Shown: piece by piece, positions 358 through 36,997 of the stretch
How positions within the stretch are numbered: position 1 is the stretch's first letter
Layout: each line of letters begins with the position of its first letter
Assembly: GCA_040219085.1 (NCBI GenBank)
Contig: JAVJTC010000025.1
Location: 1-36,997 of the forward strand
From: Acidimicrobiales bacterium
GTDB taxonomy: Bacteria > Actinomycetota > Acidimicrobiia > Acidimicrobiales > JAVJTC01
DNA length: 36,997 nt
Direction: 5' to 3'
Position numbers and translations under genes: made by a program
The notes under the pieces: generated by a model
Database searches by the model: none
What the model saw: the letters and a program-made list of their open reading frames with translations, nothing else
What the model was told of the DNA's origin: nothing

Positions 358-390
358 TCAGCCCTCCAGGGGTCGGTCTCAGCCCTCCAG
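358..390. repeat. 12-bp direct repeat at amidohydrolase stop
   Basis: TCAGCCCTCCAG occurs at 358-369 and again at 379-390, a 21-base period. On the minus strand each copy reads as the last codons plus TGA stop of the amidohydrolase, so the end of that gene including its stop codon has been duplicated just downstream. Confidence 0.7.
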
Positions 391-1389
391 AAGGTGAGGC
401 GCGCGCCGATCCAGGCGCAACAGCCGGGCCGCGTTCGCGTTCAAGGTGTCCGTGTAGTTGGTGACGTCGGCACCGGTTCCGCGGTCCCAGCCGCCGAAGT
501 TCGTTCCGTAGACGAGGTGATCGGTCCCGATCTGGGAGATCACGAAGTCGAACTCCCGGCCACCTGTCACGTGGCAGTCGAACCAGAGTCGGCGGTAGTG
601 CTCGTCGAACGCACCCGGTTCCTTGATCCACTCGGGCGAGGCCGGACGGCGCTCGGCCAGCTTGCGCAGCTTCGACATGGCGAGCGGTGTCGAACCGCCA
701 CCGTGCGAAAGGCAGATGTCCAGGTCGGGGTGGCGCCGTGTGACGCCACCGAAGACGAGCGTGGCCGTCGCCACCATCTCCTCGAAGGAGTACTCGAGCA
801 CGAGATCGAGGTCCCACTTGCGCAGGCGCCGGTCCCGCAACGGACCGTCGATACCGGACTGGCATGGATGCATGAACAGCGGGACGTCGAGGTCGACGCA
901 TGTGGCGTAGAGCTCGTCGAGACCCGGGTCGTCGAGGTCGGTGCCGAAGTCGGTGCCGATGTAGCCGCCCAGCAGGCCGAGGTCGGTCACGATGCGCGTC
1001 AGCTCCTCGCACGCGGCCCCGATGTCCTGCATCGGCAGCGCCCCCAGTCCGACGAAGCGGTCGGGGTGGGCGCGGACCGTCTCGGCGAGGTCGTCATTGT
1101 GGGCGCGGCAGAAGTCCACGGCGAGGGGAGCGTCGATGAAGTGCAGGTAGGTCAGCGGGTTCGGCGACAGCGCCTGGACCCGGATCCCCTGCTCGTCCAT
1201 CGCCGCGAGACGCAGATCGGTCTCGATGAACAACGATCCCCGGTAGGCGACACCGTCCAGCTGGTAGTTCCCCACCCGGAACCAGGCGGTTCCGTCGTCG
1301 TGGGTGCCGATCTCAGGACCGCACCACCCGGCCGTCCCCATGGATCCCTCGAGGACGATGTGGCCGTGGACATCGATCAGGCCGGTCAC
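379..1389 (-). CDS. Amidohydrolase-2 family metal-dependent hydrolase
   Basis: A 336-residue TIM-barrel hydrolase of the amidohydrolase_2 (ACMSD-like) family. These enzymes decarboxylate or hydrolyse carboxylated substrates in the cytoplasm. Visible metal-site elements are DVHGH near the N-terminus (His8, His10), FMHP (His174) and LSHGG (His229). The fourth expected position, normally the Asp of a G(S/T)D(Y/W)P motif, reads YGTNFGG, so the Asp is Asn296 and the following Pro is lost. Activity may therefore differ from the family standard. The start is GTG at 1389 with only a weak ribosome site. It is the last gene of the minus-strand operon, 45 bases after the alcohol dehydrogenase. Its place at the end of a CoA-ester catabolic operon suggests a role in substrate entry or side-product handling, but the substrate is unknown. 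Confidence 0.85.
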   Translation of the reverse strand: MTGLIDVHGHIVLEGSMGTAGWCGPEIGTHDDGTAWFRVGNYQLDGVAYRGSLFIETDLRLAAMDEQGIRVQALSPNPLTYLHFIDAPLAVDFCRAHNDDLAETVRAHPDRFVGLGALPMQDIGAACEELTRIVTDLGLLGGYIGTDFGTDLDDPGLDELYATCVDLDVPLFMHPCQSGIDGPLRDRRLRKWDLDLVLEYSFEEMVATATLVFGGVTRRHPDLDICLSHGGGSTPLAMSKLRKLAERRPASPEWIKEPGAFDEHYRRLWFDCHVTGGREFDFVISQIGTDHLVYGTNFGGWDRGTGADVTNYTDTLNANAARLLRLDRRAPHLLEG

Positions 1390-4204: not shown

Positions 4205-4277
4205 GTGCGTTCTCCTCGTTCGATGCGATGTGGTCTGTCGATCTGATGTGCGCTGCCGGTGTCGTGTGCGCTGCGAC

Positions 4278-5000
4278 TCACGTGCGGCCCTCCATGATCC
4301 CGTCGGCGCCGGTCAGCCATGTCGCCAGTCCCGCCACGGGGACGGCGCACAGAACCGCCTCGACGATCTGCGCCTCCGAGCAGCCCGCCCGACGGGCACC
4401 GTTGGCGTGGACGTTGATGAACCGGCTCGAGAACTCGGCGGCGTTGATGGTGCACAACAACAGCTCGGAGTGCTCGGCGGCGAGCGTGTTCTCCGCCAGG
4501 GACCACTGGCGCATCAGCACGTAGCCCTCGAGAGCGCGCGACGCCTCGTCTGCCATCAACTCGACGTAGCCGGGCACGGTCTCGAACACCGACGCGAAGT
4601 AGTCGCGGGCGGCCTGCTCATCGACGGCGAAGTCCGGAACCTCACCGACGGGTTCGCCGATCGTCTCGTCGAAGACCTCGTCGATGGCGGCGGCGAGTGT
4701 CGAATAGACCCCTTCGCCCCGCGAGATCAGCACGGTGAGCGCCGCCCCGCGGGCATCGGACACCACGAGTCCGAGGTCCCTGCTGCGGCTGAGTTCGTGG
4801 CGGGTCATGTCGGCGTGGCCCTTCACCGCGGAGGCGCACGCCATGTACAAGGCCTTGAAGCGCGCCTCACACGCACCGTCGGTGTCGCAGACCTCGCGGA
4901 TACGCGCGTAGCCCTCGGCGAACTTCGGGCTCACGGCGGCGATCTCACCGGAACGCAGGACGGGGCTGCCCAGCGTCGTGTGATCCGCGTTCTGTGACAT
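4278..5000 (-). CDS. Carboxymuconolactone decarboxylase-like protein
   Basis: A 240-residue all-helical protein with two CMD/AhpD-like units. The first is around 45-100 (ALYMACASAVKGHADMTRHE) and the second around 175-235 (LLLCTINAAEFSSRFINVHA). Each has the helix-turn-His pattern of the family but neither has the CxxC of AhpD peroxidases. A disulfide-based peroxidase role is therefore unlikely, and a decarboxylase, hydrolase or structural role is open. ATG at 5000 follows a strong AGGGGGAG. It lies in the middle of the CoA-ester operon, separated from the SDR by 115 bases, the largest gap in the operon, so a secondary promoter there is possible. The substrate cannot be told from sequence. 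Confidence 0.8.
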   Translation of the reverse strand: MSQNADHTTLGSPVLRSGEIAAVSPKFAEGYARIREVCDTDGACEARFKALYMACASAVKGHADMTRHELSRSRDLGLVVSDARGAALTVLISRGEGVYSTLAAAIDEVFDETIGEPVGEVPDFAVDEQAARDYFASVFETVPGYVELMADEASRALEGYVLMRQWSLAENTLAAEHSELLLCTINAAEFSSRFINVHANGARRAGCSEAQIVEAVLCAVPVAGLATWLTGADGIMEGRT

Positions 5001-5115
5001 CGGCTCCCCCTGTGATGCGCGACGACTATCGAGCTCAGTCCGAGTTTGACGCAGTCAGCGCTGCGTTGCGATTCGAGCCGGGACTCCGGTCACCCGGCAA
5101 CGGCGACGTCGGCCG
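5001..5115 (-). promoter_or_regulatory. Possible internal promoter before CMD gene
   Basis: The 115-base gap between the SDR and the CMD-like gene holds a -10-like GATAGT on the minus strand (5025-5030) and a small palindrome TGAC-N3-GTCA (5047-5057). No good -35 lies at the right distance. This is a weak candidate based only on these words and the unusually long gap within the operon. Confidence 0.2.
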
Positions 5116-5868
5116 TCAGAGCTTCGCGACCTCGCCGCCGTCGATGACGAAACACGACCCGGTCGCGAACTCCGACAACGGCGAAGCCAGGTAGCAGACC
5201 AGGGGCCCGATCTCTTCGGGTCGCCCCATGCGACGCGCCGGGATCTTCTTCAGGCGCGCCTCGAGGAACTTCGGGTCCGACACCACGGCGTCCTGGGCCG
5301 CCGTCTCGAACGCGCCGGGGGCGATCACGTTCACGCGGATCTTGTGCTTGGCCCACTCCCCCGACAGGGCCTCGGTGAGCCGCAACAGGCCGCCCTTGGA
5401 CGACGAGTAGGACACGAGCATCGGCTTTCCCTTCGTGGCCGACGTCGACGCGATGTTGATCACCGAGCCCGGCTTGCCGGCCTCGATCCAGTGGATCGCC
5501 GCGGCCCGTGCGAGCGTCGCCGGCGCCACCAGGTTGATGGCGAGGACCTTCTCCATGAGGTCGATCCCCTGATCGATGAACTTCCCGCCCGGCGCGATGC
5601 CGGCGTTGTTGACGATCGCGTCGAGCCGGCCGAATCGGTCCAGGGCGACACCCACGAGCCCTTCCACCGCTTCACGGTCCGCCATGTCGCACTGGGCGAC
5701 CTCGTACGCGTCGGGGTTCTCGGCGGCGAGCGCCTCGAGGTCGTCGAGGCTGCGGGCCGCCACGACGACCTTCGCCCCCTCGGCGACCAGCGCACGCGCG
5801 GAGGCCTCCCCCAGGCCACGGCTGGCACCGGTGACGATCGCGACGGTTCCTTCGAGTTGCAGATCCAT
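5116..5868 (-). CDS. SDR family NAD(P)-dependent oxidoreductase
   Basis: A classical short-chain dehydrogenase of 250 residues. The cofactor motif TGASRGLG is at 13-20 and NNAG at 87-90. The catalytic set is Ser in the IASTSA segment near 141-143, Tyr154 and Lys158 (YSSSK). The C-terminus, TGSCFVIDGGEVAKL, is the usual substrate-loop end. It starts one base after the acyl-CoA dehydrogenase stop, so the two are translationally linked. With a dehydrogenase, a hydratase and a MenB/BadI-like crotonase nearby it fills the place of a 2-hydroxycyclohexanecarboxyl-CoA dehydrogenase (BadH is an SDR) or of the IpdF-type SDR in steroid breakdown. That role is inference from context; SDR motifs do not give the substrate. 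Confidence 0.9.
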   Translation of the reverse strand: MDLQLEGTVAIVTGASRGLGEASARALVAEGAKVVVAARSLDDLEALAAENPDAYEVAQCDMADREAVEGLVGVALDRFGRLDAIVNNAGIAPGGKFIDQGIDLMEKVLAINLVAPATLARAAAIHWIEAGKPGSVINIASTSATKGKPMLVSYSSSKGGLLRLTEALSGEWAKHKIRVNVIAPGAFETAAQDAVVSDPKFLEARLKKIPARRMGRPEEIGPLVCYLASPLSEFATGSCFVIDGGEVAKL

Positions 5869-5869
5869 G

Positions 5870-7015
5870 TCAGTCGACCTCCTGGACGAGACGGGCCGCC
5901 ACGCCGAGGCGCAGGACCTCCGACGCGCCTTCGTACACCCGCATCGGACGGGCCTGGCGGTAGTACTTCTCGATCTTCGAGCCGCGGATCAGGCCCCAAC
6001 GACCCATCACCTGCACGCAACGGTCCACCACCTTGGTGGCCGACTCGGTGGCGTCGAGCTTGGCGAGCGACGACCGGTCGAGGTTCGCAGCCGGATCGAC
6101 CCGGGCCCGCGAGGCGGTCTGGTAGGTCAACAGACGCGTGGACTCCAGGTCCGCGTAGGCGTCGGCGAGCAGGCTCGCCACCGGCCCGAGCTTCGCCAGC
6201 GGTCGGCCGAACTGTTCACGCGAGCGCGTGTGACGCACGGCCTCTTCGATCGCCCCCTCCATCACACCGATCGCGGCGCCGGCGACGGAGATCCGGAACA
6301 CCGACAAGGTGGCGAGCACGTGACGGAAACCCTTGCCGGGCTCACCGAGGCGAGCGGACGCGGGCAGTCGGACGCCCTCGAAGTCCACCTCGCCGAGAAC
6401 GTGGGGGGCGATGATCTCGGGACTCGTGCCGATCTTCACGCCGTCGGCGTCGGCCGGCACGAGGACCAGCGAGTACAGGTCGTCGCCGTCGGGGCCGTCC
6501 TCACGACACAACGTGGTGAAGAATCCCGCCGATCCGGCGTTGGAGATGAACGACTTCTGCCCCGAGACGACGATCTCGTCGCCGTCGACCCGTAGGCGGG
6601 TGGTGAGCGACTTCAGGTCCGACCCGGCCACCGGCTCGGTGAGAGCCAGCGCGGCCAGCACCTCGGCGGACGCCACCTTGGGGAGCCAGTGCGCCTTCTG
6701 CTCTTCGGTACCGGCCACCGAGACCGCGTAGGAGCCGATGCCCTGGAGGGCGAAGATCGAGTCCAGGTGCGACGACACCTTCATGCACGCCTGACGGGCG
6801 AGACACACGGCCAGAGGGTCGACCCCCTCGAAGCGCCCACCGTACGCCGCGGGCACCATCAGCTCCGAGAGCCTGCTGCCACGCAGCACGGCGAGTGTGG
6901 GCTCGTGGATCTGCGAGCACTCGTCGGCCTCCATGGCGAACGGCTCACACCGTGCCGCCACCTCCCGTGCCTCTTCGAGAATCTCAATGTCGGGCGGGTC
7001 GAGTTCGAAAGCCAA
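5870..7015 (-). CDS. Acyl-CoA dehydrogenase
   Basis: A full-length (381-residue) FAD-dependent acyl-CoA dehydrogenase that introduces an alpha-beta double bond into an acyl-CoA. The middle domain has the family signature ALTEPVAGSDLKSL (about 124-137). The C-terminal helix domain carries RVYEGASEVLRL with the catalytic-base candidate Glu362. The start appears to be TTG at 7015, preceded at a good distance by AGGAAGGA; no in-frame ATG or GTG fits better. It is the first gene of the seven-gene minus-strand operon and divergent from the MenB/BadI-like gene at 7071, with only 55 bases between. It is probably the first oxidation step after CoA activation, with electrons passing to ETF. Chain- or ring-type substrate preference cannot be read. 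Confidence 0.93.
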   Translation of the reverse strand: MAFELDPPDIEILEEAREVAARCEPFAMEADECSQIHEPTLAVLRGSRLSELMVPAAYGGRFEGVDPLAVCLARQACMKVSSHLDSIFALQGIGSYAVSVAGTEEQKAHWLPKVASAEVLAALALTEPVAGSDLKSLTTRLRVDGDEIVVSGQKSFISNAGSAGFFTTLCREDGPDGDDLYSLVLVPADADGVKIGTSPEIIAPHVLGEVDFEGVRLPASARLGEPGKGFRHVLATLSVFRISVAGAAIGVMEGAIEEAVRHTRSREQFGRPLAKLGPVASLLADAYADLESTRLLTYQTASRARVDPAANLDRSSLAKLDATESATKVVDRCVQVMGRWGLIRGSKIEKYYRQARPMRVYEGASEVLRLGVAARLVQEVD

Positions 7016-7070: not shown

Positions 7071-7856
7071 ATGGCCGACGTCATCGTCGACCGGCGCGAT
7101 CAGGTTCTGTGGCTGACGCTGAACCGGCCGGAGCGGATGAACTCGTACGACCGCGGGACCATCGACGAGCTCGTCGAGGCCTTCTACGAGAACGCCGACG
7201 CCAGGGTCACCGTCATCACCGGCACCGGCCGTGCGTTCTGTGCGGGCGGCTACCTCGCCAACCTGTCGAACCCCGACTTCTGGGAGATCCGGAAGATGTT
7301 CACGGGCTCCATGCTGCTGTTCGACACGATCCGCCAGGCCCCGATGCCCGTCATCGCCGCCGTCAACGGGGGCGCCTTCGGCGGCGGCAACGAACTGGTC
7401 GTGTGCTGCGACCTCGCCATCGCAGCCGAGAGCGCCCAGCTCGGCCAGACCGGGGTCAAGGTCGGCTCGGCGCCGGTGCTCGGCGGTACGAACCTGCTCG
7501 CGATGACCATCGGCGAGAAGCGCGCCAAGGAGATCTCGTTCCTGTGCCGCAAGTACACGGCGCAGCAGGCCTACGACATGGGCTGGATCAACGCCGTCGT
7601 CCCCGACGACCAGCTCGAGGCCGAGGTCAACCAGTGGTGCGACGAGATCATCTCGATGTCGGCGCGCTACATGGAGGTCGCGAAGGCGTCATCGAACCTC
7701 TACTACAACGCCAACCGGGACAACATGTTGACGAGCCTCGGCGCTCTCCTGCAGGCCGTCGGCTCGCCGGACATGTTGGAGGGGGCACGTGCGTTCATGG
7801 AGAAGCGCAAGCCGCAGTTCCCGCCACGCGACACGGGCACCGGCGGTGCCGGGTGA
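7071..7856 (+). CDS. MenB/BadI-like crotonase, possible ring-cleaving hydrolase
   Basis: A 261-residue crotonase-superfamily protein closest by eye to 1,4-dihydroxy-2-naphthoyl-CoA synthase (MenB) and its relative BadI (2-ketocyclohexanecarboxyl-CoA hydrolase). The diagnostic stretch is GQTGVKVGS at 125-133, followed by FLCRKYTAQQAYDMGWIN, which matches the MenB-branch pattern rather than ordinary hydratases. Oxyanion-hole segments are FCAGGYL and NGGAFGGGNE. The hydratase glutamate of the second position is absent, so simple enoyl hydration is unlikely. With no menaquinone genes nearby, and an adjacent CoA ligase, acyl-CoA dehydrogenase, hydratase and SDR, a retro-Claisen ring-opening hydrolase is the best inference. 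It opens the plus-strand operon, 64 bases before the ligase. Confidence 0.88.
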   Translation: MADVIVDRRDQVLWLTLNRPERMNSYDRGTIDELVEAFYENADARVTVITGTGRAFCAGGYLANLSNPDFWEIRKMFTGSMLLFDTIRQAPMPVIAAVNGGAFGGGNELVVCCDLAIAAESAQLGQTGVKVGSAPVLGGTNLLAMTIGEKRAKEISFLCRKYTAQQAYDMGWINAVVPDDQLEAEVNQWCDEIISMSARYMEVAKASSNLYYNANRDNMLTSLGALLQAVGSPDMLEGARAFMEKRKPQFPPRDTGTGGAG

Positions 7857-7920: not shown

Positions 7921-9609
7921 ATGACCAACTACTACACCGAGTTCTCACCGACGTTCGAGGACCGCTCCGACTGGGCGTCGCCGACGGTGCTGCGCCACCA
8001 CGCGGAGGCCCGACCCGACTCCGTCTACCTCGACGTGCCGTGGGAGGGGATCTCGCTGACCTACGCCGAGACGCTGGCACAGGCCACGGCGATCGGCCGC
8101 GGGATGCTCGAGGCCGGCGCGTCGCCCGGTGACCGGCTCCTCATCATGATCCCGAACTGCTCCGAGTACATCCTCGGCTGGCTCGGCTCGGCCTGCGCGG
8201 GCCTCGCCGAGGTCCCGATCAACACCGCCTACAAGGGCGCGTTCCTCGAACACCAGACCCGCACCGTCACGCCCACGCTCGCGCTGGTGGATCCCGCCTA
8301 TGCGGACCGGTTCGTCGACGTCGCCGACGCCGCCGAGACTGTGAAGCGCTTCGTCCTCGTCGGCGGGGACGACGCCTCCCGTGCCGAGGCCCGTTCCCTG
8401 CTCGAAGGTGCCGGCTTCGCCGTGGGGACGTGGGAGGAACTCGTCGCCGCGGGCGAGGCGAGCGACGCGGAACTCCCGGAGGTGCGCTACTGCGACCTCG
8501 GCTCGGTGTTCTTCACCTCGGGCACCACGGGCCTGTCCAAGGGCGTGATGATGCCCCACGCCCACATGCACATGTTCGCCGACCAGGCCGTGTCGCTCAC
8601 CCGCTGCACACCCGACGACGTCTACATGACGACCGGTCCCCTGTTCCACGGCAACAGCTCGTTCCTCGGTGCGTACCCTGCGCTCATCGCGGGCGCCCGC
8701 TACGTGATGCAGGAACGTTTCAGCGCCACCCGCTGGATCGACCAGATCCGCGACAGCGGCGCCACCATCACCAACTTCGTCGGCGTGATGATGGACTTCG
8801 CCTGGCAACAGGAGGAGCGTCCCGACGACGCCGACAACGACCTGCGCTGCATCTTCGCCGCTCCCACCGCCCACTCGTTCATGGACGGGTTCAAGGAACG
8901 TTTCGGCGTGGAGGAGTTCGTCGAGGTGTTCGGACTCACCGAGACCTGTTGTCCGATCCTCAGCCCCTACGGGGTGGAGCGGCCGCCCGGCGCTGCGGGG
9001 CTCGTGAACAACGAGTGGTTCGACGTCCGCCTCGTGGACCGCGAGACCGACGAGGAGGTCCCCGTCGGTGAGGTCGGCGAGATGGTCGTCCGTGGGAAGG
9101 TCCCGTGGATCCACTCGACCGGCTACTTCGCCATGGGTGACAAGACGGCCGAGAGCTTCCGCAACCTGTGGTGGCACACCGGCGACGGCCTGCGCCGCGA
9201 CGAGTACGGCTGGCACTACTTCGTCGACCGGATGAAGGACGCCATCCGCCGAAGGGGCGAGAACATCTCCAGCTTCGAGGTCGAGCAGGCGCTGCTGCCG
9301 CACCCCGCGGTGCACGAGGTGTCCGTGGTCGCCGTCCCCGCCGACCAGGAGGCCGGCGAGGACGAGGTCATGGCCTTCGTCGTGTTGAGCGAGGGCGCCG
9401 AACTCGACCCGACGGAGTTCTGGGAGTACGCCGAGACACGGCTCCCCTACTTCGCCGTGCCCCGCTACGTCCGGGTGATCGACGAACTGCCCAAGACGCC
9501 CTCCGAGAAGGTCCGCAAGGTGGAGCTCCGCAACATCGGAGCGGATGACCAGACCCATGACCGTGGCCCCACCGCCCGGGGCCGCCGCGACGGCACGAAG
9601 GGGGCCTGA
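7921..9609 (+). CDS. Acyl-CoA synthetase (AMP-forming)
   Basis: A 562-residue ANL-superfamily ligase that activates a carboxylic acid through an acyl-AMP to its CoA thioester. The phosphate-binding loop TSGTTGLSKG lies at about 199-208, the FGLTE core near 336-341, the HTGD Asp near 420, and the hinge/Arg-Lys region DRMKDAIRRRGENIS near 433-447. The C-terminal catalytic Lys region is TPSEKVRK (about 525-532). The pattern, with the RRRGENIS hinge, resembles crotonobetaine/carnitine-CoA ligase-like members. I chose ATG 7921 (MTNYYTEF) rather than the in-frame ATG at 7789, which would overlap the previous gene and add a low-quality leader; an AGGGAA lies just upstream. It ends 2 bases before the next gene. 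Probably the entry step of the pathway encoded by the two divergent operons. Confidence 0.92.
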   Translation: MTNYYTEFSPTFEDRSDWASPTVLRHHAEARPDSVYLDVPWEGISLTYAETLAQATAIGRGMLEAGASPGDRLLIMIPNCSEYILGWLGSACAGLAEVPINTAYKGAFLEHQTRTVTPTLALVDPAYADRFVDVADAAETVKRFVLVGGDDASRAEARSLLEGAGFAVGTWEELVAAGEASDAELPEVRYCDLGSVFFTSGTTGLSKGVMMPHAHMHMFADQAVSLTRCTPDDVYMTTGPLFHGNSSFLGAYPALIAGARYVMQERFSATRWIDQIRDSGATITNFVGVMMDFAWQQEERPDDADNDLRCIFAAPTAHSFMDGFKERFGVEEFVEVFGLTETCCPILSPYGVERPPGAAGLVNNEWFDVRLVDRETDEEVPVGEVGEMVVRGKVPWIHSTGYFAMGDKTAESFRNLWWHTGDGLRRDEYGWHYFVDRMKDAIRRRGENISSFEVEQALLPHPAVHEVSVVAVPADQEAGEDEVMAFVVLSEGAELDPTEFWEYAETRLPYFAVPRYVRVIDELPKTPSEKVRKVELRNIGADDQTHDRGPTARGRRDGTKGA

Positions 9610-9611
9610 CC

Positions 9612-10472
9612 ATGAGCGAAGCCGGTACCGAGATCGACCGCCAGACCGAGATCTGGGTGTCGCCCACCGGTCGCGGTCGCGTGATGGCGATGGACTCCGC
9701 GTACGACGTCAACCCCGCCAACCGGGGCACTGACATCTGCGTCAACTCGTCCTACTGCGGCGTGCTGCCCGCACGTTTCATCGCGGAAGCCGCTCCCCGG
9801 GGCGCGATCGGCATGGACTGCGGCATCGGTCCGGAGGGCTCGGCGATCGCCGGGCTCTGGTATCTCGAGGCGCTCGCGATACCGGGCGCGGTCGCCGACG
9901 TAATGACCGCGCACCTGGGCGACGGGGTCCACCTCCACGACCACGGCATCATCTCGTTCCGCAACCAGCCGGCCGCCGACTGCGGCGTGGACGTCGGGAT
10001 GTCGGTGCGGGAAGCCGCCCAGGTCATGCTCGAGAACGACCCGGTCACCGCGTCCGCCTCGGAGATCACCAACCGGACGGTCATGGAGACCTCCGCCGAC
10101 GGTCGCCACGTCATCGCGACCGACTCGATCGCGTTCGGGACCGACGAGGACACCGGCCGCAACGTCCTGGTCACGGCCGGCCACACGGGCCGCAGCGCCG
10201 TCCCCTACCTGCGGCGGTGCTCACCGTGGGGGTTCATCTGCTCCGACGGTGGACGCGGCATGGACGACTCCGGCATGGCCGGCATGGTCATCGTCGAGGA
10301 GGACGGACTCGCCGGAGCCACCGTCGACGCGACGAAGGCCCGCATGGGTAGCGGGCTGTCCCACTACCACGACGGGATCATCTCGGCGGCCAACTCGCTG
10401 GCCCGGGCCCGCGGTGTCGAGATCGGGATGTCGTGCCCCGAGGCCGCACACCTCCTGCTCCAGAAGGACTGA
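9612..10472 (+). CDS. Unrecognised protein made of two similar ~143-residue halves
   Basis: I do not recognise this 286-residue protein. It consists of two homologous halves. Residues 63-143 align without gaps to 206-286, about 31 of 81 positions identical by hand count, and the similarity extends back to MAMDS (26-30) against IATDS (168-172). Each half ends with a D-H/D-GIIS segment, then GV-(D/E)-(V/I)-GMS, EAA and a Leu-rich tail. Conserved DxGxG near the start of each aligned block and several conserved Gly suggest ligand- or metal-binding loops, but this is speculation. No signal peptide or membrane segment. ATG 9612 lies 2 bases after the ligase stop, so it is co-translated with it and probably serves the same pathway. 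A set of 18-base repeats overlaps its 3' end. Confidence 0.8.
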   Translation: MSEAGTEIDRQTEIWVSPTGRGRVMAMDSAYDVNPANRGTDICVNSSYCGVLPARFIAEAAPRGAIGMDCGIGPEGSAIAGLWYLEALAIPGAVADVMTAHLGDGVHLHDHGIISFRNQPAADCGVDVGMSVREAAQVMLENDPVTASASEITNRTVMETSADGRHVIATDSIAFGTDEDTGRNVLVTAGHTGRSAVPYLRRCSPWGFICSDGGRGMDDSGMAGMVIVEEDGLAGATVDATKARMGSGLSHYHDGIISAANSLARARGVEIGMSCPEAAHLLLQKD

Positions 10473-10511
10473 CTTCTCCAGCAGGACTGACTTCTCCCGC
10501 AGGACTCAGGA
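10458..10511. repeat. 18-bp tandem repeat spanning a stop codon
   Basis: Three consecutive 18-base units begin at 10458, 10476 and 10494, each starting CTCC(A/C)G(A/C)AGGACT. The first encodes the end of the preceding gene (LQKD and the TGA stop); the second repeats that end with its stop; the third is diverged. Two more partial relatives (CTCCAGAGAGACCGACT at 10521 and CTCCAGAAGGACCG at 10540) follow. The structure is a serial duplication of the gene's 3' end into the spacer. Confidence 0.75.
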
Positions 10512-13463: not shown

Positions 13464-14750
13464 ATGGCAACTGCTTCAACGGGGGATCGCGCGCGCAAGA
13501 GGCCGGTCTGGGTGTTGATCATCGCCCTACTGGCGGTCTTCTCACTGATCGCCGCGGCATGCGGCGACGATGACGACGACACTTCCGCCGGCGGCGACGA
13601 CGGAGCCGCATCCGACGACGGCAGCTCCAGCGACGACGGAGCCGCATCCGACGACGGCAGCTCCAGCGACGACGGAGCCGCATCCGACGACGGAGCCGCA
13701 TCCGACGACGGCATGGTCGAGTACGAAGAGATCGAACTCCAGATGGCGAGCTTCCTCTCGCCCACGACGTCGCAGGGTGTTGCGATCACCCGGTGGATCG
13801 AGGAGCTCGAGAGCCGCACGGACGGCGCCGTCACCGTCGAGGTGTTCTGGGACGGAGCGCTGCTGGGCGGCACCGAGATCCGCGACGCCTGCGTCGACGG
13901 CCGCATCGCCCTCTGCCACTACACCTACGCGTACACCCCGGCGGACTTCCCGCTGAGCTCGATCGTCGAGGTCCCGTTCCTCGGCGGCAACCTGGGCGCC
14001 CAGGCCGTCGCTCTCAACGAGCTGTACGCCAACAACGCCGACTTCCGCGCCGAGTTCGAAGAGGGCGCGGGCACCAAGGTCCTGTCCTTCATCGGTGTTC
14101 CGGCACCGATCACCGGCACCACCGAGCCTGTCACCTCGATCGACTGGTTCGACGGCAAGAACGTCCGCGCCAGCGGCTTCTACGTGCGGGCACTCGAGTT
14201 CGTCGGGGCGAACCCCGTCGCCATCCCGGTCAACGAGGCGTACGAGGCCATGCAGCGGGGCACGGTGGACGCCTACGGCGGCCTGATCCTCGACGTGATC
14301 GCACCGTTGTCCCTGCAGGAGGTGGGGCCCTACATCCACGACGCCGGGCTCGGCCACTTCGCCATGACCACCTGGGGCATGTCCCTCGACCAGTGGAACT
14401 CCCTGTCGCCGGAACTCCAGGCGCTTCTGGACGAGATCAACGCCATGTACCCGCAGTGGCTCGTCGAGGCCGATACGGCCTCGACCGTGACCGCCTGCAA
14501 CACCATCCTCGACGACGGCGGCGAGGTCATCATCTGGGACGAGGCCGAGACACAGCGCTGGGCCGACGCCATCGGCGACGCGCCACTCGAAGACTGGCTG
14601 GCCAAGGCCGCCGACGCCGGCGTGGCCGACCCCCAGGCGATGTACGACGAGTTCGTGGGCTACTACGAGGCAGCGAACACCACCGGCGAATTCGCCGACG
14701 TCCCGACGCCCATGGAGGCCTGCTTCGAAATCCAAGAGGCACGTGGCTGA
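13464..14750 (+). CDS. dctP: TRAP transporter substrate-binding lipoprotein
   Basis: A 428-residue DctP-family solute-binding protein of a TRAP transporter, which delivers an organic acid or similar solute to the DctQM permease. It begins with a lipoprotein signal (KRPVWVLIIALLAVFSLIAA, lipobox Cys33). An unusually acidic, repetitive linker of Asp/Gly/Ala/Ser follows at 34-83. The binding domain (about 87-428) includes KNVRASGFYVRALEFVGANP and Arg235, the position that in the family usually salt-bridges the substrate carboxylate. ATG 13464 is preferred over an upstream in-frame ATG (13311) because it follows GGGGGAAC and is immediately before the signal. Its stop overlaps the dctQ start by 8 bases. 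The leader and linker are nearly the same as in the two other binding lipoproteins in this window. Confidence 0.93.
   Translation: MATASTGDRARKRPVWVLIIALLAVFSLIAAACGDDDDDTSAGGDDGAASDDGSSSDDGAASDDGSSSDDGAASDDGAASDDGMVEYEEIELQMASFLSPTTSQGVAITRWIEELESRTDGAVTVEVFWDGALLGGTEIRDACVDGRIALCHYTYAYTPADFPLSSIVEVPFLGGNLGAQAVALNELYANNADFRAEFEEGAGTKVLSFIGVPAPITGTTEPVTSIDWFDGKNVRASGFYVRALEFVGANPVAIPVNEAYEAMQRGTVDAYGGLILDVIAPLSLQEVGPYIHDAGLGHFAMTTWGMSLDQWNSLSPELQALLDEINAMYPQWLVEADTASTVTACNTILDDGGEVIIWDEAETQRWADAIGDAPLEDWLAKAADAGVADPQAMYDEFVGYYEAANTTGEFADVPTPMEACFEIQEARG
13596..13715 (+). repeat. 36-bp coding repeat in dctP linker
   Basis: A 36-base unit starting GACGACGGAGCCGCATCC is present at 13596 and 13632, and again from 13668 in an 18-base shortened form repeated once more. 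It encodes the (G)AASDDGSSSDD type linker between the lipidated Cys and the binding domain. The number of copies is likely to vary by slippage or recombination. Confidence 0.85.
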
Positions 14751-27550: not shown

Positions 27551-27600
27551 GTGGTGAACCACCGCGCCCGGGCAGCTGTGCTCAACTTACGGTTCTGTAA
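27551..27600 (+). promoter_or_regulatory. Small inverted repeats before binding-protein gene
   Basis: The 85-base gap before the binding protein contains GTGGT-GA-ACCAC (27551-27562) and TTAC-N6-GTAA (27587-27600). Either could be a short operator or an mRNA hairpin giving the binding protein separate expression. No convincing -35 is seen. Confidence 0.25.
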
Positions 27601-27619
27601 ACGAGGGGGAGAAACCCAT

Positions 27620-28858
27620 ATGACTACCAATGTCCGATCCGGCCGCAAGCGCTGGATGGTCCTGATTGCACTGCTCGCGGTGTTCTCGCTGATCGCCGCG
27701 GCCTGCGGTGACGACGATGACGACACCTCGGCCGGCGACGACGGCGCAGCAGCCGACGACGGTGGCTCCGACGACGGCGCAGCAGCCGACGACGGTGGCG
27801 AGATGACCGGCGTGGCACTGGCCCAGGCCCGTGTCGACCAGTGGACGAACCCGCAGTCGAGCGTGGGCATCACCGAGCCGGTCGCCGTGCCGGAAGACCT
27901 GGACATCGTCTACGTTCAGTGTTCGGTCCCGGTGTGCAACGTCATCGGCCAGGGCGTGGCCGAGGCCGCCGACGCGATCGGCGCCAACCTCGAGGTCATC
28001 ACCCACACCGACACAGCGGACACGGTCCAGTCGGCATTCCAGCAGACCGTGCAGGCCGCTCCGGACCTGGTGCTCACCTCGGGTAACCCCCGTGAGTGGT
28101 TCGCCGCAGAGCTCGAGGAGCTCGACTCGATGGGGATTCCCGTCGTCGTCTGGTCCATCCCCGAGCCCTACGTGGACCAGCCCGGCATCACCGCCAACCT
28201 CATCTCCGGTGACGACTACTGGTTCGCCGGCGTCCTGCAGGCCGACTACGTCATCGCCGACAGCGGTGGAACCGCTCAGGCCCTCTACATCACGATCCCG
28301 CAGTTCCCCGTGCTCGGCCTCGAGCTCGAGGGCTTCCAGGACGAGATGGCGGCGAACTGCCCCGACTGCACCGTGAAGGTTCTCGAGTTCACCGTGCCCG
28401 ACCTTCTCGAAGGTGCCCACATCTCCCAGACCGTCGCCGAGCTGCAGTCCAACCCGGACATCACCTACCTGGTCACCGGCTTCGGTGACATGATCCTCGG
28501 CATGTCCGAGGCGTTCTCGGGTTCCGGTGTTGGTGACGGCGTCATCGGCGTGTCCCAGGCATCCACCGAGCCGAACTACCAGCTCATCGCGGACGGCAAC
28601 CTGCAGGTGGTCGACATCGGTCTGCCCACCGAGTACCTGGCGTGGCGTGCGATGGACGAGGCCCTGCGTGGCCTCGCCGGCGCCCCGCTCGGCACCTTCG
28701 AGCAGCCGCCCCTGACAGACTTCCCCGACCGCGTCGTCGAGGTCGACAACTTCCCGTGGTTCATCATCACCCAGGACAACGTGGGTGACCCGACCACACC
28801 GTTCGAGCCCTTCCCCGGGTTCAAGGACGAGTTCCTCGCCCTCTGGGGCATGAGCTGA
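27620..28858 (+). CDS. ABC transporter substrate-binding lipoprotein 1
   Basis: A 412-residue periplasmic-binding-protein-like-I (RbsB-type) protein. The signal peptide KRWMVLIALLAVFSLIAA ends at lipobox Cys29. An Asp/Gly/Ala linker (30-60) with two identical 30-base DNA units follows. The mature domain begins around LAQARVDQW and has DIVYVQCSVPVCNVIGQG, the typical first strand and helix, and two-domain alternation. ATG 27620 is chosen because it follows GAGGGGGAG and starts the signal. It is downstream of its ATPase and permease in the same direction and followed by a strong terminator. The leader and linker are closely related to those of dctP and of the lipoprotein at 36775, although dctP belongs to a different transporter class. 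Confidence 0.93.
   Translation: MTTNVRSGRKRWMVLIALLAVFSLIAAACGDDDDDTSAGDDGAAADDGGSDDGAAADDGGEMTGVALAQARVDQWTNPQSSVGITEPVAVPEDLDIVYVQCSVPVCNVIGQGVAEAADAIGANLEVITHTDTADTVQSAFQQTVQAAPDLVLTSGNPREWFAAELEELDSMGIPVVVWSIPEPYVDQPGITANLISGDDYWFAGVLQADYVIADSGGTAQALYITIPQFPVLGLELEGFQDEMAANCPDCTVKVLEFTVPDLLEGAHISQTVAELQSNPDITYLVTGFGDMILGMSEAFSGSGVGDGVIGVSQASTEPNYQLIADGNLQVVDIGLPTEYLAWRAMDEALRGLAGAPLGTFEQPPLTDFPDRVVEVDNFPWFIITQDNVGDPTTPFEPFPGFKDEFLALWGMS
27737..27799 (+). repeat. Two identical 30-bp linker repeats
   Basis: A 30-base unit (27737-27766 and 27770-27799, separated by TCC) encodes DDGAAADDGG. Exactly the same 30 bases occur at 36964-36993 in the other binding-lipoprotein gene. Confidence 0.9.
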
Positions 28859-28930: not shown

Positions 28931-29758
28931 CTAGGAAGCCCCTGCCTCGGCGAGGGCCCGGCCGACGAGCACCCTGGCGAGGTGACGGCGGTAGGCCTCG
29001 TCCGCGTTCAGGTCGTTCGGCGGGTCGAAGCCCTCGTCGGCAACCGCGGCGGCATCGGCTGCCGACGAACCCGACGACAGGGCGGCTTCCACGGCGGCAG
29101 CACGCTGCGGCGCCGAGCCCATGTTCACCAGCGCTATCCCCGAGTTGCCGTTGTCGACGACCGCGGCCACCCCGACGATGGCCCAGTCCTGGGCACGCCG
29201 GTTGAACTTCTGGAAGGACCACCCGGCACCGGGCATCTTCGGGACCCGGACCTCGACGAGCAACTCGTCGGGGTTGATCGCCGTCTCGAGGAAACCGGTG
29301 AAGAGGTCATCGGCGGCGATCTCGCGGCGGCCGGCCGGACCCTGGACCACGACGCTGCCGCGCAGGGCCAGCAGAGTGGCGGGATGGTCCGCTGCGGGGT
29401 CACCGTGCGCCAGGGCGCCACCGAGGGTGCCACGGCTGCGGACCTGGGGGTCGCCGACCTCGCCGGTGGCGTGGGCCAACAGAGGGACCTGCGAACGCAA
29501 CAGTTCCGAGGTGGCCACTGCGTGATGCGTGGTCCCGGCACCGATGGCGATGTGGTCGCCGTCCTCGCGGATGTAGGACAGATCTGCGATCTGACCGACG
29601 TCGACGAGAACCATCGGCGAGGCCAGGCGCAGCTTCAACAGTGGGATCAGCGAGTGACCACCGGCGAGTACCTTGGCCTCGTCGCCGTGTTCGGCGAGTA
29701 CCGACAGGGCCTCCTCGACCGTCTCGGCCCGGGTGTAGTCGAACTGGGGAGGGATCAC
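28931..29758 (-). CDS. Molybdenum hydroxylase FAD subunit (CoxM-like)
   Basis: A 275-residue FAD-binding subunit of the xanthine dehydrogenase / CO dehydrogenase family. The two FAD motifs are LAGGHSLIPLLKLRL (about 31-45) and TLGGALAHGDPAAD (about 111-124). It passes electrons from the iron-sulfur subunit to the acceptor. The start is GTG 29758, overlapping the small-subunit stop by 4 bases (GTGA). Last gene of the minus-strand locus. The substrate is set by the large subunit, which lacks the true CO dehydrogenase motif, so I give no cox symbol. Confidence 0.93.
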   Translation of the reverse strand: MIPPQFDYTRAETVEEALSVLAEHGDEAKVLAGGHSLIPLLKLRLASPMVLVDVGQIADLSYIREDGDHIAIGAGTTHHAVATSELLRSQVPLLAHATGEVGDPQVRSRGTLGGALAHGDPAADHPATLLALRGSVVVQGPAGRREIAADDLFTGFLETAINPDELLVEVRVPKMPGAGWSFQKFNRRAQDWAIVGVAAVVDNGNSGIALVNMGSAPQRAAAVEAALSSGSSAADAAAVADEGFDPPNDLNADEAYRRHLARVLVGRALAEAGAS

Positions 29759-30240
29759 GCCTCCACCCCCTCGGGGTGCTCAGCGGCCCAGCGGACCGAG
29801 TCGACGATCTTCTGGTAGCCGGTGCAGCGGCAGAGGTTGCCCTCGAGCTCCAGGCGGATCTTCTCGCGGGACGGATCGGGGTCGTCGGCGAGGATCCCCG
29901 CCGACGCCATGATCATTCCCGACGTGCAGAATCCGCACTGCAGACCGTGGCACTGGCGGAACCCCTCCTGGACCGGATGGAAGTGATCCGGATCCGGCGC
30001 GAGGCCCTCGATGGTCGTGACCTCGTGGCCGTCGGCCTGCACCGCGAGGATCGTGCACGACTTGGCGGCGCGACCGTCGAAGTGGACCGTGCAGGCCCCA
30101 CAGTTGGACGTGTCACATCCGACGTGGGTGCCGGTGAGACCGCGCACCTCACGGATGTAGTGAACGAGGAGCATCCTCGCCTCGACCGTGTCGGTCCGGC
30201 TCTTGCCGTTGATCGTCACGGAGATCTCGTGGGTGCTCAT
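29755..30240 (-). CDS. Molybdenum hydroxylase 2Fe-2S subunit (CoxS-like)
   Basis: A 161-residue iron-sulfur subunit carrying two [2Fe-2S] clusters. The plant-type site has Cys42, Cys47, Cys50 and Cys62 ([10 protein letters not shown] then SC). The second site has Cys102, Cys105, Cys137 and Cys139 (CGFC then CRC). All eight ligands are present and the length is normal. The start ATG 30240 overlaps the large-subunit stop by one base (TGATG), and the stop overlaps the FAD-subunit start, so the three subunits are translationally coupled. It relays electrons from the molybdenum site to FAD. Confidence 0.96.
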
Positions 30241-32558
30241 CAGCCCTCACTTCCGTTGCCGTTGATGATTTTCCAGACCTTCTGGGGGGTGATCGCCGGG
30301 TCGACGTTCACCACGCCGTACTGGCGCAGTGCGTTGACCACCGCGTTCACCACCGCCGGGGTGGCGCCGATGGAACCGGATTCACCGATCCCCTTCGCCC
30401 CCATCGAGTTGTGCGGGGTCGGCGTATTCTCCCTGGCCTCCTCGATCTGGGGAAGGTCGGCCGCCGAGGGAAACAGATAGTCCATGAGCGTCGCCGTCAA
30501 TGGCTGACCGTTCTCGTCGTAGGTCATCTGTTCCCACATCGCCTGAGCGATGCCCTGCACGATGCCCCCCTCGACCTGGCCTTCGGCCAACAGCGGGTTG
30601 ATCACGGTGCCGCAGTCGTCGACTGCGACGAAACGCTCGATCTCCACCCGGCCGGTGTCCCTCTCGATCCCGACGATGCACACGTAGGCGCCGGAGGGAA
30701 AGGTGAACCCGGTGGGCTCGTGGAAGATCTGCACCTCGAGGCTTCCCGGGGCGATGTCGTCGGGGAGCTGGGTCGGTGCGAGGCCGGCCCAGCCGACCTC
30801 CTTCCAGGACACGGTCTTGGACGGTGTTCCGGCCACGCCGAACTGCCCGTCGACCACCTCGATGTCGTCGGGGTTGGCCTCCAGCAGGTGCGCCGCGACC
30901 TTCTTGGCGTTCTCGAACACCTGCGTGGCCGCCCGCTTGGTGGCCTCGCCGGCGATGGCGGCGGTACGTGAGCCCTGGGTACCGATACCCATGGGCACCG
31001 CGTCCGTGTCGCCGTAGTGGACGCTGATGTCGTCGAAATCCATGTGCAGGGCGTCCGCGGCAATCTGCGAGAGCGTCGTCACCGTCCCCTGCCCGTGGGG
31101 CGAGGCCCCGGTCTCGATGATCGCCGTGCCGTCAGGCTGGATCTTGACCTGGGCGGACTCGTAGCTGGCGATGTTCCCGAAGCCCTCCAGGGAGCCTCGG
31201 GGACCGAACGCGGCGATCTCGGTCCACGTGGAGAAGCCGATACCCATCAGCTTCTCGCTCGGATCGGCGTTGCGGCGGTCCCGTTCAGCCTTGAGGTTCT
31301 CGTAGTCGACGATCTCGAGCGCCTTCGCGAGGCCTGCCGGGTAGTTGCCGGAGTCATACCAGAGCTCCGCGTGGGCGACCTTGTAGGGGAAGTCCTCGGG
31401 CTGGATGAAGTTGCGCATCCGGACATCGGCCGGATCGAGGTCGACCTCGTAGGCCACGTGGTCGATGACCCGCTCGATGAGGTAGGCGGCCTCGGGACGA
31501 CCTGCGCCCCGGTAGGCCGACATCGGGCTCTTGTTCGTCACGACGAGTGTGTGGCCCGCCGCGATGGCCGGGATCTTGTAGCACCCCGACGACATCCAGT
31601 TGGTCAACGTCGGCATGCCGAAGGCGTACTTGTCCGGGTACCCACCGGCGTCCACGAGCACCTTCGACCGCAGGCCGAGGATGGTTCCCTCGTCGTCGAA
31701 GGCGACCTCGTAGTCGTGCCACTGGTCCCGCCCCGGGAACATGAGCAGAAAGCACTCAGAGCGCGTCTGGACGTACTTCACGGGACGCCCATGACGTCGG
31801 GAGAGCTCTGGGACCAGGAACAGCTCGGGGAAGGGCTGGACCTTCGCACCGAAGCCACCACCGACGTCGGGCTGGATGACCCGGCACTGGTTCTGGGAGA
31901 TACCGAAGTAGTCCGTCAGGCGGTTTCGGTAGCCGTGGGGATTCTGGACCGAGGCCCAGACGGTCAGCTTGTCACGACGCCAGTCCGCCAGTACCTGGTT
32001 GGTCTCGAGCGGAACCGGGTGCACCCGGTTGTTCCAAAGCCGCCCCGACGCCGTATGCGGTGCGCTGTCGAACACCTCGGCGAGGTCGTCGGTCCACGGC
32101 GTGTCGAGCATCACGTTGGAGGGCAGCCCCTCCATGATGATCGGGGCGTCATCGGCCAGCGCCTCGTAGGGATCGGTGACGATCGGCAGGGGTTCGTATT
32201 CGACGAAGACGGACTCCGCGGCGTCTGCTGCCAGGTAGGCGCTCTCGGCGAGTACGACAGCGACCGGATCGCCCACGAAGTGCACGGTGCCGTGAGCCAG
32301 GATCGGCCGTTCGACACCCGGCATACCCTCCATGCCGGGTAGGTGGGCGAAGTCCGCGTACGTGTAGACACCCAGGACGCCGTCGGCGGCCTCGGCCTCG
32401 GACGTGTCGATGGACAGGATCTTCGCATGGGCCTCGGTCGAGCGGACGAAGACCATCGCCGCCGTGTCGACGAGCTGGACGTCGTCGGTGTACTGACCGC
32501 GACCGGTGATCAGGTTGGGATCTTCCTTGCGGATGACCCGCGCCCCCACCATCGTCAT
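30240..32558 (-). CDS. Molybdenum hydroxylase large subunit (form II CoxL-like)
   Basis: A 772-residue molybdopterin-binding catalytic subunit of the xanthine dehydrogenase family. The active-site loop reads AYRGAGR, the form II signature, not the AYxCSFR of true aerobic CO dehydrogenase, so CO oxidation is unlikely. Other family landmarks are DVGGGFGAK, HGQGTVTTLSQIAADAL and GIGESGS with the catalytic-type Glu. Such enzymes hydroxylate heteroaromatic rings, aldehydes or activated CH groups with water. ATG 32558 follows AGGGGAA. It lies 76 bases after a P450 gene and upstream of the two smaller subunits (order L-S-M). No MoCo-insertion chaperone (CoxF/XdhC-like) gene is within the window. Confidence 0.95.
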   Translation of the reverse strand: MTMVGARVIRKEDPNLITGRGQYTDDVQLVDTAAMVFVRSTEAHAKILSIDTSEAEAADGVLGVYTYADFAHLPGMEGMPGVERPILAHGTVHFVGDPVAVVLAESAYLAADAAESVFVEYEPLPIVTDPYEALADDAPIIMEGLPSNVMLDTPWTDDLAEVFDSAPHTASGRLWNNRVHPVPLETNQVLADWRRDKLTVWASVQNPHGYRNRLTDYFGISQNQCRVIQPDVGGGFGAKVQPFPELFLVPELSRRHGRPVKYVQTRSECFLLMFPGRDQWHDYEVAFDDEGTILGLRSKVLVDAGGYPDKYAFGMPTLTNWMSSGCYKIPAIAAGHTLVVTNKSPMSAYRGAGRPEAAYLIERVIDHVAYEVDLDPADVRMRNFIQPEDFPYKVAHAELWYDSGNYPAGLAKALEIVDYENLKAERDRRNADPSEKLMGIGFSTWTEIAAFGPRGSLEGFGNIASYESAQVKIQPDGTAIIETGASPHGQGTVTTLSQIAADALHMDFDDISVHYGDTDAVPMGIGTQGSRTAAIAGEATKRAATQVFENAKKVAAHLLEANPDDIEVVDGQFGVAGTPSKTVSWKEVGWAGLAPTQLPDDIAPGSLEVQIFHEPTGFTFPSGAYVCIVGIERDTGRVEIERFVAVDDCGTVINPLLAEGQVEGGIVQGIAQAMWEQMTYDENGQPLTATLMDYLFPSAADLPQIEEARENTPTPHNSMGAKGIGESGSIGATPAVVNAVVNALRQYGVVNVDPAITPQKVWKIINGNGSEG

Positions 32559-36774: not shown

Positions 36775-36997
36775 ATGCGTAGGTCCAAATGGGCGATTTT
36801 CGTCGCGCTCTTGTTGTCGTTCGCGTTGATCGCGTCGGCCTGTGGCGACGATGACGACGACACCTCATCGGGTGACGACGGCACAGCAGCCGACGACGGT
36901 GGCGACGACGGCACAGCAGCCGACGACGGTGGCGACGACGGCACAGCAGCCGACGACGGTGGCGACGACGGCGCAGCAGCCGACGACGGTGGCGACG
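36775..36997 (+). CDS. Binding lipoprotein, 5' part (third importer)
   Basis: Only the first 74 codons are in the window. The protein starts MRRSKWAIFVALLLSFALIA and has lipobox Cys23 (LIASAC). A GDDDDDTSSGDDG stretch and at least four copies of a DDG-TAADDGG-type linker follow. ATG 36775 follows GGGGGAAC with good spacing. The leader is of the same kind as in dctP and the binding protein at 27620. Divergent placement from a CUT2 ATPase/permease pair that lacks its own binding protein makes this its probable partner. The binding domain itself is beyond the edge, so the family assignment is inference. Confidence 0.8.
   Translation, partial: MRRSKWAIFVALLLSFALIASACGDDDDDTSSGDDGTAADDGGDDGTAADDGGDDGTAADDGGDDGAAADDGGD
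36871..36997 (+). repeat. 30-bp tandem coding repeat
   Basis: Four full copies (36871, 36901, 36931, 36961) and the start of a fifth of a 30-base unit beginning GG(C/T)GACGACGGC(A/G)CAGC. The copies differ at one or two positions. They encode the GDDGTAADDG linker behind the lipidated Cys. The array runs off the window, so its full length is unknown. Confidence 0.93.

Follow-up and report, generated by a model that had tools for sequence, protein, structure and literature searches.

An apparently undescribed tandem-domain protein, linked to a BadI/MenB-like crotonase and with a probable DUF1805-like fold in each half

The described protein family closest to the one reported here is DUF1805/YunC (Pfam PF08827, COG3377), with the uncharacterized member TA1206 as the PDB entry 1qw2. 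The sole entry for DUF1805 in one survey is a link to Trm11 in archaea (PMC9425974), and no function emerged from a search of the literature on DUF1805, YunC, TA1206, and the apionate pathway. The 3-oxo-isoapionate pathway, the other described system of relevance, includes the kinase OiaK and the RuBisCO-like protein OiaX and was described by Carter et al. 2018, as cited in PMC6302742. In the present analysis, we focused on a 286-residue protein, designated P0001, encoded in a contig of 36,997 nucleotides from an Acidimicrobiales bacterium (JAVJTC010000025.1), the whole of which is referred to as the window.

The features of the P0001 locus are summarized in Table 1. The ATG of P0001 is located 2 nt past the stop codon TGA of the ligase gene (9607-9609), and the reading frame agrees with the earlier note on this DNA, which had placed the gene at 9612-10472 with its start 2 bases after the ligase stop. 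The product would be cytosolic. An 18-bp unit, CTCCAGCAGGACTGACTT, is repeated 2.7 times at 10458-10506 and crosses the P0001 stop codon into the 3' flank, so that the last codons of the gene are duplicated downstream, and no convincing terminator was found in the 3' flank. Tandem repeats were also observed elsewhere in the window: the genes at 13464-14750 and 27551-28855 are predicted to encode solute-binding lipoproteins of different transporters, which have almost the same signal peptide and also share a linker rich in Asp, Gly, Ala, and Ser, for which tandem repeats of 33-36 bp code. A third repeat of this kind (30 bp), at 36874-36997, is cut by the contig end. A three-gene set at 28934-32558 resembles, by eye, a molybdenum hydroxylase (medium, small, and large subunits).

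Table 1. Features of the P0001 gene and its cluster in the window.
Feature	Position	Strand	Basis or remark
Amidohydro_2 protein, same cluster	382..1389	-	in 18/38 loci; often beside second paralog
Short-chain dehydrogenase, same cluster	5116..5868	-	found in 22/38 loci
Acyl-CoA dehydrogenase, divergent, same cluster	5870..7015	-	found in 20/38 loci
BadI/MenB-like crotonase, most conserved partner	7071..7856	+	PF00378; upstream in 29/38 loci
AMP-forming acyl-CoA ligase, first upstream partner	7921..9609	+	PF00501/PF13193; between crotonase and P0001 in 19/38 loci
Shine-Dalgarno-like GAAGGGGG	9597..9604	+	inside 3' end of ligase gene; sequence
P0001 CDS, two-domain protein	9612..10472	+	286 aa, ATG start, stop included; kept in 44 loci outside this genome
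N-terminal repeat (residues about 11-146)	9642..10049	+	Tyr48 in place of His of most of family
Gap-free repeat copy 1 (residues 63-143)	9798..10040	+	offset comparison
C-terminal repeat (residues 152-286)	10065..10469	+	His191 kept; modelled alone, pLDDT 93
Candidate active-site Asp171	10122-10124	+	conservation, strand ends in model
Candidate active-site residues, C half: His191, Asp212, Ser258, Asn261	10182..10394	+	conservation, strand ends in model
Gap-free repeat copy 2 (residues 206-286)	10227..10469	+	offset comparison

The two halves of P0001 are homologous. As had been claimed, residues 63-143 align without gaps to residues 206-286, 31 of the 81 positions being identical at an offset of exactly 143, compared with 13 of 81 at the best other offset. 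The gapped score between the halves was 165, which is 25 SD above the shuffled value of 30 ± 5.4 (2000 shuffles, maximum of 62). The repeat extends beyond this 81-residue stretch to the whole protein, involving residues about 11-147 and 152-286, and the relatives carry the same internal repeat, one half of one protein matching the opposite half of another. The tandem duplication is older than the split of the P0001 paralogs. As to whether it occurred once or twice, both halves of the P0001 type were grouped together in the free tree, but a single old duplication was not rejected by the AU test (p of 0.41 and 0.30).

Profile searches of Pfam and NCBIfam gave no family that describes P0001, and sequence searches of solved structures with P0001, a full-length profile, and a half profile gave nothing credible. 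Consistent with the earlier note, in which the protein could not be placed in any known family, no strong match to a characterized family occurred, the scope of this absence being the libraries searched. The score of P0001 against DUF1805 (PF08827) was 21.3 bits, below the gathering cut-off of 29.5, and matches to this profile were obtained in 8 of the 10 relatives tested, most of them being weak and one, an Aminobacter member (L062), being above the cut-off at 31.7. The comparison of the P0001 family with eight DUF1805 sequences by hhalign gave a score of 27 against a maximum of 14.3 for shuffled columns, but with a probability of 34% and over 53 columns, with only the C-terminal part aligning. 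The signature residues of the P0001 family were looked for in DUF1805 and were not found. Judging from the sequence, P0001 appears to be a member of an undescribed family of proteins with one or two domains and a signature of its own.

The AlphaFold model of full P0001 (38 related sequences) had a pLDDT of 88, and that of the C half alone (52 half-sequences) had a pLDDT of 93 and a pTM of 0.90. In the full and half models alike, 1qw2 was the only PDB structure that stood out, and it aligned to the half model with a Z of 8.0 and an rmsd of 2.6 over 87 of 102 residues, the next chain being at 4.4, although this match concerns one small domain at a Z sometimes reached by unrelated alpha/beta proteins. 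Foldseek alone ranked 1qw2 18th and 6th (E of 0.6-0.7), and the claim of a DUF1805 fold rests on three lines taken together, namely, the second structure aligner, the comparison of profiles, and the weak Pfam matches that recur among the relatives. LarB, SteA, STAS, and Rossmann enzymes were rejected as fold matches, their Z values of 3.5-4.9 being too low for use. Each half of P0001 probably has a DUF1805-like fold, which is distinct from membership of the Pfam family. The earlier view that the protein could not be placed is, therefore, valid for sequence families but not for the predicted fold.

The signature of each domain in the P0001 family was found to consist of D-S, S-H, N-D-A-G-x-G, S-A-R-I-G-D, and G-x-I-S-x-x-N, and Asp-Ser, Ser-His, Asn-Asp-Ala-Gly-x-Gly, Ser-Ala-Arg-Ile-Gly-Asp, Ser, and Asn were near-invariant across 35 two-domain and 8 single-domain relatives. 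The P0001 type has Tyr for the N-half His and departs from the signature in parts of the S-H, N-D-A-G, and S-A-R motifs. In the predicted models, the conserved polar residues lie at the C-terminal end of successive strands or just past it, the usual place of the active site in alpha/beta enzymes, and the placement of the conserved Asp/His/Asp/Ser/Asn fits an active site, with a putative catalytic role. The glycine-rich loops were among the lowest-confidence parts of the full model, as would be the case for mobile loops. Within the P0001 subfamily, only the C half (Asp171, His191, Asp212, Ser258, and Asn261) would retain the full set, and the N half would be a partner or a modified site. Because the N half has Tyr48 for His, whereas the C half keeps His191, it is likely that P0001 has one complete and one altered site.

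Gene linkage was evaluated in the 38 related loci whose upstream sequence was long enough, and 29 of them had a crotonase homologue (72-77% identical) upstream of the P0001 homologue. The linkage is conserved well outside the source genome, in line with the check proposed in the earlier note, and P0001 belongs to a catabolic cluster that is conserved. The earlier note had based its reading on the tie to the ligase and CoA thioesters, but the strict partner of P0001 is the crotonase more than the ligase, because no ligase is present between the two genes in 10 of the 29 crotonase-linked loci, in which the P0001 homologue abuts the crotonase. Of 59 related genomes, three had the P0001 gene and precisely these three had the crotonase gene, the chance of which would be about 3e-5 if they were independent, most of the genomes surveyed being metagenome assemblies, some of them incomplete. 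Both were also present together in the actinobacterial genomes G217, G300, and G311 and the Pseudonocardia genome G347, within a few kilobases of each other where mapped. In betaproteobacterial members, the crotonase was absent and a short-chain dehydrogenase was adjacent. The best family for the upstream crotonase was BadI (2-ketocyclohexanecarboxyl-CoA hydrolase, TIGR03210), with MenB as the nearest structures; its score of 197 bits is far below the TIGR03210 cut-off of 467.6, so that it is not BadI itself, and the linkage to BadI-like genes, which the earlier note had named as a check, is conserved in other genomes with this correction. To our knowledge, the classical Bad/Ali pathway includes no counterpart of P0001. 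Taken together, it is highly probable that P0001 takes part in the pathway of the upstream crotonase. It was also observed that a 240-aa protein encoded at 4278-5000, which is AhpD/CMD-like by eye only and had no Pfam match at an E of 1e-5, is kept in 22 of the 38 loci.

Beyond the source genome, 44 loci had close relatives of P0001, most of them in Acidimicrobiia and others in Pseudonocardia and betaproteobacteria, and distant relatives were present on Rhodococcus, haloarchaeal, and alphaproteobacterial plasmids; the family was matched in 36 of 337 alphaproteobacterial genomes. Some relatives are single-domain proteins of 130-150 residues. The source genome has a second copy on another contig, which is 49% identical to P0001 and adjoins a different acyl-CoA ligase and a thiolase, and in genome G300 both paralogs are neighboring genes. 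Genes for OiaX-like RuBisCO-like protein, OiaK-like kinase, and PGDH_C are located beside relatives in haloarchaea, an alphaproteobacterium, and actinobacteria, and alphaproteobacterial relatives adjoin an acetolactate-synthase-like ThDP enzyme (14 loci), PDH-E1-type subunits (17 and 13 of 43), and TRAP transporters. Most neighbors in these other contexts cleave carbon-carbon bonds of keto compounds, a theme which was noticed post hoc and to which the thiolase beside the second paralog also conforms, and roughly 14 of the 43 loci have no keto-cleavage enzyme nearby. Some relatives, including single-domain ones, occur in pathways that do not involve CoA thioesters; specialization in such compounds is, therefore, not a trait of the family, and the tie to a CoA-thioester pathway in the earlier note does not extend to the family as a whole. 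We know of no P0001-family enzyme among the published 3-oxo-isoapionate steps.

Several observations were made beside these contexts. On haloarchaeal plasmids (L061, 8824-11474; L065, 8833-11482), OiaX-like and OiaK-like genes are present with TRAP transporters, in an apparent archaeal version of an apionate-type route. The Aminobacter member (L062, 7758-8816) differs from the others in its N-terminus, which is of the export type (twin-arginine-like), and it may act outside the cytoplasm. On betaproteobacterial plasmids (L111, 2444-2719; L113, 450-725; L114, 486-740), a DUF1805 gene is located between PAS-domain and histidine-kinase-like genes, with the kinase side only in L112, hinting at a signaling role of DUF1805 there.

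The earlier note had left the choice between an undescribed pathway enzyme and a binding or carrier protein; the undescribed family and the conserved catabolic cluster are retained, and the enzyme is favored, P0001 being very probably one, although no member with known activity was found when activity was sought for the P0001 family and DUF1805 members. We propose that the two fused DUF1805-like alpha/beta domains would act in the catabolic route to which the upstream BadI/MenB-like crotonase belongs. As the least certain step, P0001 may perform cofactor-free acid-base chemistry (tautomerization or epimerization) on an acidic keto acid or keto-acyl intermediate, delivering the form accepted by the neighboring carbon-carbon-cleaving enzyme. 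This neighbor would be the crotonase at P0001 and, in other clusters, a ThDP enzyme or a RuBisCO-like protein of the OiaX type. The specific assignment as a tautomerase or epimerase on a keto intermediate is possible, although it falls on the unlikely side.

The conserved Ser, His, and Asp could alternatively be those of a cofactor-free hydrolase (lactonase or ring-opening enzyme) with a site of the Ser258-His191-Asp212 type, giving the free acid to be activated by the adjacent ligase or kinase. This is in line with the own acyl-CoA ligase adjoining each paralog of the window type and with the frequent location of members beside lactone-capable dehydrogenases (GMC oxidoreductases, Zn-alcohol dehydrogenases, and PQQ-dependent sugar dehydrogenase). 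However, a lactonase is not needed in the ThDP clusters, the L100 cluster seems, by eye only, to have a lactonase-like gene already (4211-5125), and the crotonase in the window cluster is of the keto-ring-opening type, so that we consider such a hydrolase doubtful. The strict co-occurrence and adjacency with the crotonase would also be expected of a protein without a catalytic role that binds, carries, or scaffolds pathway intermediates or the crotonase. The lack of known activity in DUF1805 fits this as well, as does the position of DUF1805 genes on some plasmids, flanked by genes for a PAS protein and a histidine kinase, which suggests sensing. However, the number of near-invariant polar residues located at C-terminal strand ends or next to them, the stand-alone single-domain relatives with different partners in unrelated pathways, and the export-type N-terminus of one relative make this role unlikely. 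It is more unlikely still that P0001 is a carbon-carbon lyase (decarboxylase or retro-aldolase) on a beta-keto or beta-hydroxy acid: although catabolic clusters of keto compounds are the usual setting and the Aminobacter member adjoins HMG-CoA-lyase and RraA genes, that chemistry is already supplied by the neighboring crotonase, RuBisCO-like protein, thiolases, and ThDP enzymes, and the conserved residues of the family include no conserved Schiff-base Lys (the Lys of NDAGxGK being lost in P0001) and no clear metal-binding set. Finally, a relationship to Y-family DNA polymerases is negligibly probable and IMS-family membership was rejected, because the IMS model (PF00817), although matched in P0001 at 28.3 bits (cut-off of 23.2) and again in 7 of 10 relatives (5 of them above the cut-off), covers only a 28-residue motif (28 of 148 profile positions), with no other polymerase domain or architecture found and structural matches to polymerases limited to 46-60 residues at a Z of 4.0 or less. 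Because that model passes its cut-off on this motif, proteins of this family may be labeled as parts of DNA polymerases in automated annotation.

The preferred explanation as a whole, namely, a fused DUF1805-like enzyme in the crotonase route that carries out an acid-base step on a keto intermediate, is advanced tentatively, as a serious possibility somewhat short of probable. More tentatively, the family might be one of enzymes with a DUF1805-like fold that make keto intermediates ready for the cleavage of carbon-carbon bonds in three or more catabolic settings of different chemistry (crotonase/CoA, RuBisCO-like protein/phosphate, and ThDP), with P0001 as the asymmetric type having one complete and one altered site. 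The family is missing from Pfam and NCBIfam, yet about one-tenth of the sampled alphaproteobacterial species have it, as do members of the actinobacteria, betaproteobacteria, and haloarchaea, and it recurs at fixed positions of catabolic operons with known chemistry. Because the neighbors include enzymes of known reaction (OiaX and OiaK type), the missing step is directly testable in vitro, and the answer would extend to the ring-degradation cluster of the window and provide the first function for the DUF1805 fold.

In comparison with the known systems, P0001 shares with the IMS domain of Y-family polymerases a common short strand-helix motif, G-x-I-S-x-x-N-x-x-A-x-x-x-G-V-x-x-G-M, and its family shares with DUF1805 a weak profile similarity centered on GI/GV-x-x-G-M-x-x-x-E-A; DUF1805 is a single domain of about 100 residues, whereas P0001 has two longer domains in tandem, each of about 135 aa. 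In the 3-oxo-isoapionate cassette, one- or two-domain relatives of P0001 are embedded beside OiaX-like and OiaK-like genes, whereas P0001 itself is located in a CoA-ligase/crotonase cluster.
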